Assembly: GCF_000426665.1 (NCBI RefSeq) | Contig: NZ_AUFU01000001.1 | Coordinates: 124,001 to 188,000 of the forward strand | Source: Centipeda artemidis DSM 19719 | Lineage (GTDB): Bacteria; Bacillota; Negativicutes; Selenomonadales; Selenomonadaceae | Length of the DNA: 64,000 bases | Direction of reading: 5' to 3' | Shown here: in pieces, positions 27,555-29,734 of the stretch | How positions within the stretch are numbered: the stretch's first letter is position 1 | Layout of the letters: the number at the start of each line of letters is the position of its first letter | Notes under the pieces: model-generated | What the model saw: only the letters and a program-made list of their open reading frames with translations | The model's database searches: none | What the model was told of the DNA's origin: nothing | Made by a program: the position numbers and the translations under genes

Positions 27555-28205
27555 TCAGCTATGCTCACTCGCAAGGACAAGGGCATATATATTTTCCGCA
27601 CCCGCGCGTTTGAGCGTGCGCGCACACTCCAGAAGAGTTGTCCCCGTCGTCATAATATCGTCGAGAAGCAGGATATGCCGTCCCGCGATCTGCGCGCCAT
27701 CCGCGCATACAAATGCCCCGCGCAGCTCACGGCGGCGTTCTTCGCGCGAGAACTCATAAAGCGGTGCAGTTTCACGGCTGCGTACGAGCAGCGATTCGAA
27801 TGCGATCCCATGCGCCTTTAGCCACGGCGCAAAAATCAGCTCCGTCTGGTTGAATCCACGCTCATGTGCGCGCGCGGGAGCGAGCGGGACAGGTACGGCG
27901 ACGATCTGCTCCGGGAGCCGTATGAGTACCGCTTCCCCGGCAGCGAGCATGCCATGGAGATAGGGCAAAACACTTTTCTCTCGACGATACTTGAGCGTAC
28001 GCAGGAGATCCCGCACACCTTCACGGTAATATCCGAGCGCCCAAATCCCCGCAAGATACGATACGGCATCCACAGAACGGGCGACAGTACGCAGTCCTGT
28101 GAGTCGTCTCGTACAAGCACCGCAAAAACCGCCCCGCCGCTCCACATACGATTGGCAGTTCGGACAGCGGGGCGGGAAGAGAAAGTCAACAAACATCGAA
28201 AGCAA
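27555..28205 (-). CDS. comF: ComF family phosphoribosyltransferase-like protein
   Basis: A 216-residue protein of the ComFC group, needed for DNA uptake in naturally transformable bacteria. An N-terminal zinc ribbon (FPPRCPNCQSYVERRGGFCGAC) precedes a type I PRTase fold with the PRPP loop HILLLDDIMTTGTTLLECA. The helper motif RGFNQTELI is also present. TTG at 28205 is taken as start because GGAGGG lies 6 bases upstream; the next ATG is 9 bases downstream. No ComFA helicase gene is adjacent. Confidence 0.9.
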   Translation of the reverse strand: MLSMFVDFLFPPRCPNCQSYVERRGGFCGACTRRLTGLRTVARSVDAVSYLAGIWALGYYREGVRDLLRTLKYRREKSVLPYLHGMLAAGEAVLIRLPEQIVAVPVPLAPARAHERGFNQTELIFAPWLKAHGIAFESLLVRSRETAPLYEFSREERRRELRGAFVCADGAQIAGRHILLLDDIMTTGTTLLECARTLKRAGAENIYALVLASEHS

Positions 28206-28265
28206 ATGTATCCCTCCGGCGTATATAGAAGTTTCTATATTATAACGCAATTTGCTAAAAAATGC

Positions 28266-28294
28266 TTGCGATTCCCTCGGGATTATGATATAAT
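28266..28294 (+). promoter_or_regulatory. Sigma-70-type promoter of an unidentified plus-strand unit
   Basis: TTGCGA (28266-28271), a 17-base spacer and a perfect TATAAT (28289-28294), divergent from comF. The predicted start is near 28301. Confidence 0.75.
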
Positions 28295-28306
28295 AAACGC
28301 AGAAAA

Positions 28307-28345
28307 GAGATATATCTCCTAGGTTCGAAACTAGCGGAAAGGAGA
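28307..28345 (+). promoter_or_regulatory. Two mutually exclusive hairpins controlling a Shine-Dalgarno
   Basis: GAGATATATCTC (28307-28318) is a perfect palindrome. Its 3' half, within TCTCC (28315-28319), can instead pair with GGAGA (28341-28345), the Shine-Dalgarno, aided by TAG/CTA (28320-28322 and 28331-28333). One fold frees the ribosome-binding site and the other hides it. This is seen in the sequence; actual switching is inference. Confidence 0.5.
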
Positions 28346-28380
28346 ATGTCTATTGACACAAATTCTTCAGCGCGGTGACC

Positions 28381-28506
28381 ATGCCTATTGACGGGAATGC
28401 ATCTTTGAAGAAGTATTGCGGCGGCGGATTCTGCCGATACGCACATGGCATAGTGTCAAAAAAGCCGGTTGCAGCGCAGTCACTCCCCGGTGGTTCGGGC
28501 AGTTGA
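28381..28506 (+). CDS. Possible 41-residue cysteine-containing peptide
   Basis: A small open frame (MPIDGNASLKKYCGGGFC at its start) in the orphan transcript. It begins two bases after the stop of a 10-codon frame (ATG 28346) whose first codons are a near copy (MSIDTNSS against MPIDGNAS), so a 20-base segment is duplicated. A weak GGTGA precedes its ATG. Another frame starts with TTG at 28353, 8 bases after AGGAG, encodes 12 residues (MTQILQRGDHAY), then meets an in-frame TGA followed by 55 more open codons. I do not recognise any of these products, and which frame is translated, if any, is unknown. Confidence 0.25.
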   Translation: MPIDGNASLKKYCGGGFCRYAHGIVSKKPVAAQSLPGGSGS

Positions 28507-28704
28507 CAAATTCCTTCTGTACGATTCGATTTCGAAAACCAAGCGCGCAAATTGGATGAATCTATGGGATCTCCAAAACGGTTTCAGCTGAACGTACAAT
28601 ATAAGGCTTTCCAAGGCGCAGATACACGAGGCGTACGCGCGGCGGAAAGGCGACCACACAACTGAATAAGGATGGTTCACAGTTTTATGGTAATATCGAC
28701 ATAG
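28507..28704 (+). other. 3' part of the orphan transcript, no recognisable gene
   Basis: Lies between the putative peptide and the terminator. No frame here has a supported start, and no match to 6S, tmRNA, RNase P or SRP RNA signatures was seen. It may be untranslated RNA. Confidence 0.4.
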
Positions 28705-28745
28705 ATCGACAGCTTGCTCGAAATAGAGCGGCTGTCGATTTTTTT
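28705..28745 (+). terminator. Strong terminator of the orphan plus-strand unit
   Basis: Stem ATCGACAGC / GCTGTCGAT (28705-28713 and 28731-28739) with an inner GCTC/GAGC helix, followed by six T. Confidence 0.9.
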
Positions 28746-28766
28746 AGTTCATAAAACGCGTTATGC

Positions 28767-28819
28767 CGACGCAACGCTTCCCCACAATGACAAAACTAGG
28801 CGCCCCCCTCCCTCATCAC
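28767..28819. repeat. Partial copy (right end) of the palindromic intergenic repeat
   Basis: Aligns with the right half of the full copy at 28844-28967: both contain ATGACAAA-CTAGGCGC and end in CATCAC. The left half is missing. Confidence 0.55.
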
Positions 28820-28843
28820 ACCTAGTATCATAGTGCAACGTGA

Positions 28844-28967
28844 GTGACACGCAAGTTTGGATGCAGCGCAAGGAATAAGAAAAATCCAAGAGAAGGCGTA
28901 GATGAAACCTACGTCGACCGAAGCGTTTGACGAAATGACAAAGCTAGGCGCGAAAATCCCGCATCAC
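28844..28967. repeat. Palindromic intergenic repeat, copy A (diverged)
   Basis: A 124-nt unit clearly related to the copies at 57462-57587 and 57610-57733 (shared GCAAGTTTGGA, AAAAATCCA, GAAGGCGTAG, CTACGTCGA). Ends GTGAC / TCAC are inverted, and the centre CGTAG...CTACG forms a hairpin. It ends two bases from the TAG stop of the ABC ATPase gene. Confidence 0.8.
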
Positions 28968-28969
28968 CT

Positions 28970-29734
28970 CTAAATGAGAGCTGCAGGCTCATACTCTTCG
29001 GGCAGAATCCTCTGCAGAAACCGGCGCGTGCGCTCCTCACGCGGTGCGGTGAAGATCTCCTTCGCGCTGCCTTCCTCGACGATCACGCCGTCTGACATAA
29101 AGACGACGTGCGTCGCGACGTCCTGCGCGAACTTCATCTCGTGCGTGACGACGATCATCGTCGTCCCCTCGGCAGCGAGCTGCTTCATGACCTCCAGCAC
29201 CTCGCCGACGAGTTCCGGATCGAGCGCGGAGGTCGGCTCGTCAAAGAGGATGACGTCGGGCTTTGCCGCAACGGCGCGCGCGATGCCGACGCGCTGCTGC
29301 TGCCCGCCGGAGAGCTGCGCGGGGTAGTAGTCCGCGCGGCTCTCCATGCCAACCTTGCGCAGCGCCTCCATGGCGATCTCATGCGCCTCTTCCTGCGCGA
29401 TGCCGCGCCCGACCGTCAGACCGAGCGTGACGTTCTCGAGCGCGGTTTTATTCGCGAAGAGGTTGTAGTTCTGAAAGACGAAGCCCGTCTTTTTTCGCAC
29501 GTCCGCCACCTCTTTGTGAGATGCATCCGCGAGCGAGAGATGCGCGCCGTGGAAATCCATCGCGCCGCCGTCGGCGCGCTCAAGGAAGTTCAGGCAGCGC
29601 AGGAGGGTCGTCTTGCCCGAACCGCTCGGTCCTAGGATGACGACGACGTCGCCCTTGTCGACGCTGAGACTGACGTCCTTCAGCACCTCGGTGTTTTCGA
29701 ACTGTTTGCGGACATTTTGGACATGCAGCAGCAT
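28970..29734 (-). CDS. Amino-acid ABC transporter ATPase
   Basis: A 254-residue nucleotide-binding subunit of the polar amino-acid group. Walker A is GPSGSGKTT, the signature is [15 protein letters not shown], Walker B is [14 protein letters not shown], and the switch is [17 protein letters not shown] precedes the start. It is the last gene of the unit UroD-family, binding protein, permease, permease, ATPase. The partners encoded at 29747-32096 are complete, so this is a full importer. Its TAG stop is flanked by a palindromic repeat. Confidence 0.94.

Follow-up and report, generated by a model that had tools for sequence, protein, structure and literature searches.

A probable new structured noncoding RNA restricted to one Selenomonas/Centipeda genus

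Background

What does a bacterial transcription unit produce when its promoter and terminator are easily recognised and everything between them is not? The question is raised by positions 28300-28747 of the 64,000-nt stretch of Centipeda artemidis DSM 19719 analysed here (the window). The initial annotation of this locus had recorded a promoter, a perfect palindrome, a Shine-Dalgarno sequence and a terminator, all of which are present in the sequence, and had offered a small-peptide gene, a type I toxin or a regulatory RNA as possible products. Here the unit is compared across 14 genomes of the genus, including that of the window, and set against the known RNA families and the wider Selenomonadaceae.

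A unit with its own promoter and terminator

The promoter (28257-28294, + strand) consists of an A-tract, a -35 element TTGC(GA) at 28266-28271, a 17-nt spacer and an extended -10 element, TATGATATAAT, ending at 28294. In a promoter scan of the window region, TTGCGA-17-TATAAT at 28266-28294 agreed with the consensus at 10 of 12 positions, and the count of sites in the same region was not by itself above chance (one site, against a shuffle mean of 1.1). Since the scan count alone stands at chance level, the status of the promoter was settled by the 14-genome comparison. In the alignment, the TTGC of the -35 element is identical in 14/14 genomes, the -10 region TTTATGATATGATAAA agrees in 11-14 of 14 per column, the A-tract is also kept, and the spacer between the two elements is unconserved. 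Over the 61 bases that precede the A-tract, no more than nine of the 14 genomes agree in any column, and the flank downstream of the U-run is likewise unconserved (at most 9/14 per column).

At the other end lies an intrinsic terminator with its U-run (28704-28747, + strand; stem 28704-28740), of which all counted cells (100%) pair in the 14 sequences; one of its 15 pairs has changed on both sides. The stem is plain in the sequence, though the terminator scanner listed none on the + strand here. Promoter and terminator are thus kept in all 14 genomes and both flanks are not, which bears out the earlier description of an orphan transcription unit. Judging from the -10 box, the transcript would start near 28300-28302 and end at about 28747, for a length of about 440 nt from predicted start and terminator. 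From these comparisons, we infer that 28300-28747 is transcribed, and as an independent unit.

A covarying fold around a nearly invariant core

What the initial annotation had missed, and what we regard as the main finding, is a large structure that, judged from the alignment, covaries and contains an 84-nt nearly invariant core. The curated structure comprises 106 counted pairs in 13 helices on a strand-corrected alignment of the 14 sequences. Across these pairs 93.1% of the cells are paired, a figure that, like the other pairing percentages, leans towards the structure, since the latter was derived from the very alignment used for counting. Twenty-two pairs have changed on both sides, compared with 9.6 +- 2.2 after shuffling (0/500 shuffles as high) and 4-12 in slid registers. 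They are located in P3, P4, P4a, P5 and P7 (4, 4, 4, 5 and 4 pairs, respectively), with one more in the terminator, so that pairing in the unit as a whole is conserved in the relatives; a lack of such conservation was one of the outcomes that the initial annotation had named as refuting its reading. Folding z-scores of the 14 sequences range from -1.5 to -4.7 (mean -3.0); the window sequence alone folds only slightly better than its shuffles (z -1.95, 5/100 as good). Of the products first proposed, it is the regulatory RNA that gains support from this conserved, covarying fold.

All elements lie on the + strand. A tentative closing helix, P1, joins 28300-28307 with 28682-28689 (92.8% of cells paired), and a second tentative helix, Px, joins 28355-28359 with 28674-28678 (85.7%); neither has a pair changed on both sides. 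Helix P3 (28370-28382 with 28465-28477) is mismatched in several alignment rows, with 80.7% of cells paired. It is followed by P4 (28388-28400 with 28448-28459), P4a (28418-28425 with 28433-28442) and the hairpins P5 (28479-28507) and P7 (28615-28641). Mean identity is 46-60% in P7, P4a, P5 and the 3' strand of P3.

The core domain P6 (CTGTACG...CGTACAAT), with its hairpins P6a-c, occupies 28517-28600 and has a mean pairwise identity of 93%; its segments GCGCGC, UUCGAA and UUCAGCUGAA are identical in 14/14 genomes. An unpaired linker, ACAACTGAATAAGG (28658-28671), reaches a mean identity of 99%, a single base differing in one locus (L014). In P2 (described below), P6 and the inner hairpins, covariation cannot test the pairing because there is hardly any variation. 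Self-complementary core segments of at least 8 nt number 2, 3, 4 and 3 in four of the 14 sequences, and 73, 4, 0 and 5 of 1000 shuffles, respectively, contain as many; these segments are a lead only, because they were counted after the fact in rows that hardly differ from one another.

The 5' hairpins and the masked Shine-Dalgarno

The 12-nt palindrome, GAGATATATCTC (28307-28318, + strand), is kept in all 14 genomes, as GAGATATATCTC in 12 and as AGAGATATCTCT, shifted but still 12 nt long, in two. We considered it as the operator of a regulon; it occurs only once in its own genome and thus gives no sign of one. A single-site operator is possible.

Overlapping the palindrome is helix P2 (28308-28351, + strand), in which AGATAT(A)TCTCC pairs with GGAGAATGTCT over 11 bp with one bulge and masks the invariant Shine-Dalgarno GGAGA (28341-28345, + strand). 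P2 is paired in 14/14 genomes, 11 of its 12 counted pairs are without variation, and the bulged base is the sole varying position of its arms. The bulge has changed from A to C in two loci (L007 and L010), for which the tree needs two changes; an independent origin was not accepted, because the well-supported branches require just one.

The palindrome and P2 share one arm, such that the 3' half of the palindrome (TCTCC) pairs with the Shine-Dalgarno. The initial annotation had read this as a pair of mutually exclusive hairpins controlling translation, a proposal that is only partly supported: both sequences are kept in 14/14 genomes, and a balanced switch finds no support, the palindrome being far weaker. 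Predicted energies in the 14 sequences are -10.8 to -14.8 kcal/mol for P2 with its loop, versus -2.4 to -2.7 kcal/mol for the palindrome. As for control by temperature, the energy model was run at five temperatures between 25 and 50 C, and in every one of the 14 sequences it predicts the Shine-Dalgarno to be 98.4-99.9% paired (0.984-0.999) throughout. With no melting by predicted energies in this range, an RNA thermometer is disfavoured by the model, as is a balanced switch. For the palindromic hairpin, this leaves no more than a transient existence while the RNA is being transcribed, or stabilisation by a factor outside the model; control of the 5' hairpins by a ligand, a protein or transcription speed is possible.

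Coding potential

The reading frame behind the masked Shine-Dalgarno, ORF-A (28353-28391, + strand), has 12 codons (MTQILQRGDHAY), a UUG start 7 nt after the Shine-Dalgarno and a UGA stop. It has a common start and stop, no indel, and is open in 14/14 genomes; residues 4-12 vary strongly. Over these 12 codons, its conservation score of 0.41 exceeds those of the other two forward frames (-0.38 and -1.49); in a test that treats related sequences as independent, 637/3000 column shuffles scored as high, and 2103/3000 did so for the synonymous fraction. Over a longer stretch, the ORF-A frame scores 0.05 versus 0.35 for a reverse-strand frame (which has 13 stop conflicts). Pairing in P3 alone can explain part of the conservation of ORF-A. 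Two features of the alignment nevertheless speak mildly for translation: the invariance extends beyond P2 into AUUGACACA (14/14), which would suit a UUG start plus second codon, and one-sided changes opposite the UGA in P4 favour a real stop. The suggestion of a small-peptide gene thus holds to the extent that a frame is open in every genome, and falls short in that its coding signal is not significant. A leader-type peptide is possible.

Other frames offer less. An AUG lies right after the Shine-Dalgarno, closer than usual, and its frame runs for 10 codons in nine genomes and 20 in five. On the + strand the 14 genomes have no ORF of at least 20 aa with start and stop in common, which speaks against the type I toxin or an ordinary small-protein gene that had been proposed. 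On the - strand, two stops are common to 13 and 14 genomes, and the frames that end there are 3-111 and 6-48 aa long, with no constant length. A mini-ORF from the AUG at 28687 (28687-28704) has five codons (four in L013) and a stop in 14/14 genomes (TAA in 8, TAG in 3, TGA in 3). It was discounted, as UUUUAUG can pair with the 5' end (P1), the purines of its stop can be those of the terminator A-tract, and it is too short to test.

Distribution

A DNA search found the unit in 14/14 genomes of the window's genus, with one match each; the other 13 are 70-80% identical to the window sequence. Among 46 genomes of other genera there was one weak match (L015 in genome G027), which was rejected as a relative: it is a 35-base promoter-like match, and no other part of the RNA is recognisable around it. 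R1, a 131-position covariance model built on the core region, was then applied to the family and the class. It matched 14/189 genomes and 1/30 genera of the family, namely all genomes of the genus and 0/175 others, and 14/380 genomes and 1/102 genera of the class, again all genomes of the genus and 0/366 others; in these searches stricter filters were used, with 18 and 8 candidates scored per genome, so that diverged relatives could escape. The P2 hairpin pattern gave the same picture in a pattern scan (14/14 genus genomes, 0/175 other family genomes).

The core region also served for exact-motif scans. A 22-nt core motif was found at nine loci in a collection of 84,980 species, from which the window's own record was possibly left out, and all nine are named Selenomonas or Centipeda: S. 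felix, S. massiliensis, S. infelix, S. flueggei, S. noxia, Selenomonas sp. FOBRC6, F0473 and oral taxon 892, and C. periodontii. These are oral bacteria. The same exact motif had 0 matches in viral contigs, and a mobile element was rejected on this basis. On these searches, the RNA is restricted to one genus. Among the papers listed in the library searched for noncoding or small RNAs of Selenomonas, no title describes it.

Nor did the initial annotation recognise an RNA family here, and the Rfam searches agree, with only chance-level matches in the window region and the 14 loci. At the gathering score, the window contains five tRNAs only, all of them outside the unit. With E up to 10, the matches in the region 28150-28950 number two, both to families of eukaryotes and at chance level (E 7.5 and 9), and those in the 14 genus loci have E 2.7 to 9.7, leaving aside a pair of tRNAs that lie next to the RNA in one locus. 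No catalogued RNA family is credibly matched, and by sequence comparison this is probably a new functional RNA.

Genomic context

By tblastn, a ComF-family gene lies divergently upstream of the RNA in 13/14 loci; the copy in the window matches TIGR00201 (E 2.8e-25, below cut-off). The closest relative of the window by this RNA (G013; L002/L062) is without a ComF neighbour and has instead two tRNA genes about 0.2-0.4 kb upstream of the RNA (L062 2180-2331). Downstream, 11/14 loci have a convergent ORF sharing a C-terminal motif; in L010, the one tested, it is a threonylcarbamoyladenylate synthase. The window's next gene, at 28970-29734 on the - strand, encodes an ABC transporter ATPase of the amino-acid type (below the cut-offs of the best models). 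Cis control of a neighbour is unlikely, because the window has no same-strand gene downstream before 28970.

Possible functions of the RNA

Comparison of sequences gives the unit a promoter and an intrinsic terminator that are conserved, a fold that covaries, and no protein of at least 20 aa common to the 14 genomes; this is why we read it as a stand-alone noncoding RNA. The explanation we consider probable is that 28300-28747 is an independently transcribed, genus-restricted structured RNA that most likely works in trans, either in a complex with protein or as an assembly of RNA, built around the invariant P6, with ORF-A as a proposed gate. P2 would keep the Shine-Dalgarno masked, such that the default state is untranslated and folded. 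Codons 6-12 of ORF-A form the 5' strand of P3, and anything opening P2 would let ribosomes enter and unfold P3 and P4. ORF-A would then be a candidate off switch, coupled to translation, for the RNA itself, and not the gene for a useful protein. A further-reaching version would make this a new class, in which a large RNA has a ribosome-operated off switch (translation of the masked ORF-A dismantling the fold), its invariant core, rich in self-complementary segments, could form RNA multimers, and it has an important role in a genus whose family lacks ModT. We regard that whole combination as unlikely.

A dual-function small RNA, in which a functional 12-aa peptide is made from the UUG at 28353 and the RNA also base-pairs with mRNAs, like RNAIII or SgrS, is an alternative to which we give a limited but real chance. 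ORF-A is well placed for it, being open in every genome, well spaced from the Shine-Dalgarno and closed by a stop that never varies, and UCUCC occurs twice in conserved parts of the RNA (the P2 arm and GAUCUCC in the core), where it could pair with other Shine-Dalgarno sequences. Against this, the consensus fold places both copies of UCUCC in helices, the peptide varies strongly from residue 4 on, and the coding test is not significant.

Less probable still is a cis-acting riboswitch, RNA thermometer or attenuator controlling the masked ORF or a downstream gene. In its favour, the Shine-Dalgarno is in a hairpin in 14/14 genomes, and a second, palindromic hairpin shares one arm with it. Against it, the Shine-Dalgarno stays paired over the modelled temperatures, the unit closes with the terminator at 28704-28747 ahead of a gene on the other strand in the window, and the short ORF is followed by about 350 nt of RNA, much of which is conserved structure.

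That the RNA is a divergent raiA/ModT RNA, the genus's version of an RNA adjacent to comFC, we consider very improbable. The idea derives from the ComF-family neighbour in 13/14 genomes, as comFC adjoins 74% of modT genes (PMC11706538), and from the distribution of raiA itself, which is over cut-off in 0/189 genomes of the family versus 19/23 genomes of other families of the class. However, raiA (RF03072) has no covariance-model match up to E = 10 in the window region 28150-28950 or in the 14 genus loci, though the raiA of the class relatives look very alike, and homology was rejected. The RNA described here is about twice as long as raiA, and neither its core nor P2 is found in the other genera of the family, 22 of whose comF upstream regions were inspected. 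In addition, in 20 loci of the class relatives there is no comF within up to 1.5 kb on either side of raiA (tblastn with the window ComF).

Finally, a type I toxin-antitoxin mRNA is scarcely credible. Like hok- or tisB-like genes, the unit combines a masked Shine-Dalgarno with a long structured RNA, but a type I toxin is a short conserved hydrophobic ORF, usually of 20-60 aa, and no hydrophobic ORF of at least 20 aa is common to all 14 genomes, each of which has just one match.

The structured RNA is found in 14/14 examined genomes of one Selenomonas/Centipeda genus, once in each, under strong constraint and in a family without ModT over cut-off (189 genomes). From the alignment come a fold, a covariance model and specific positions for testing (the bulge, the UUG and the P3 strands), and whether translation of a mini-ORF controls a structured RNA thus becomes directly testable. 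Structured bacterial RNAs of such size without known relatives are few, and several of them have proved to be housekeeping or developmental regulators. ModT is one example (PMC11706538).

Comparison with known RNAs

RNase P RNA is of similar size, and 6S RNA is likewise a stand-alone structured RNA. Both were rejected as identities for the unit: RNase P RNA is matched elsewhere in 14/14 genus genomes, all over cut-off, and 6S RNA is matched elsewhere in 14/14 at E <= 1, in 6/14 over cut-off. The 6S matches of the genus are weak; for example, that in the window's own genome has 38.4 bits against a cut-off of 46.4.

RNAIII, SgrS and SR1 are dual-function small RNAs, each a long regulatory RNA with a short ORF, and RNAIII has UCUCC motifs. 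The RNA described here shares the long RNA with a short ORF, and with RNAIII the UCUCC motifs; it differs in that its ORF has only 12 codons and a UUG start, is masked, and carries a coding signal that is not significant.

As to raiA, it appears from the covariance searches that raiA/ModT has been lost family-wide. Four genomes of the family have sub-threshold raiA matches (E 0.37-0.53). Among the class relatives, a zinc-ribbon-like ORF starting MAFxDKTLxCKxCG follows raiA in four of five loci (L016, L018, L019, L026 and L030, from a set of 20 raiA loci), and many raiA loci of the class show the beginning of such an ORF after the RNA. One raiA (L035, G043:C40:118506-118610) lacks about half of the model, with 105 nt and 54.7 bits, below cut-off, which is perhaps a deletion or an assembly fault. 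The RNA described here resembles ModT in being a stand-alone structured noncoding RNA and in its neighbourhood, since ModT is often beside comFC (PMC11706538) as this RNA is beside a ComF-family gene. It differs in length, the raiA model having 209 positions versus about 440 nt, and in range, ModT being present across two phyla in more than 2,500 species (PMC11706538), versus one genus found here.

The large ornate RNAs OLE, GOLLD and ROOL differ from the RNA described here in that it has no Rfam match and occurs in one genus only. They are like it in being large, structured and stand-alone. Known large ornate RNAs are reported to form homo-oligomers (PMC12286853), and the invariant self-complementary segments in the core of the Selenomonas and Centipeda RNA could similarly allow RNA-RNA assembly.
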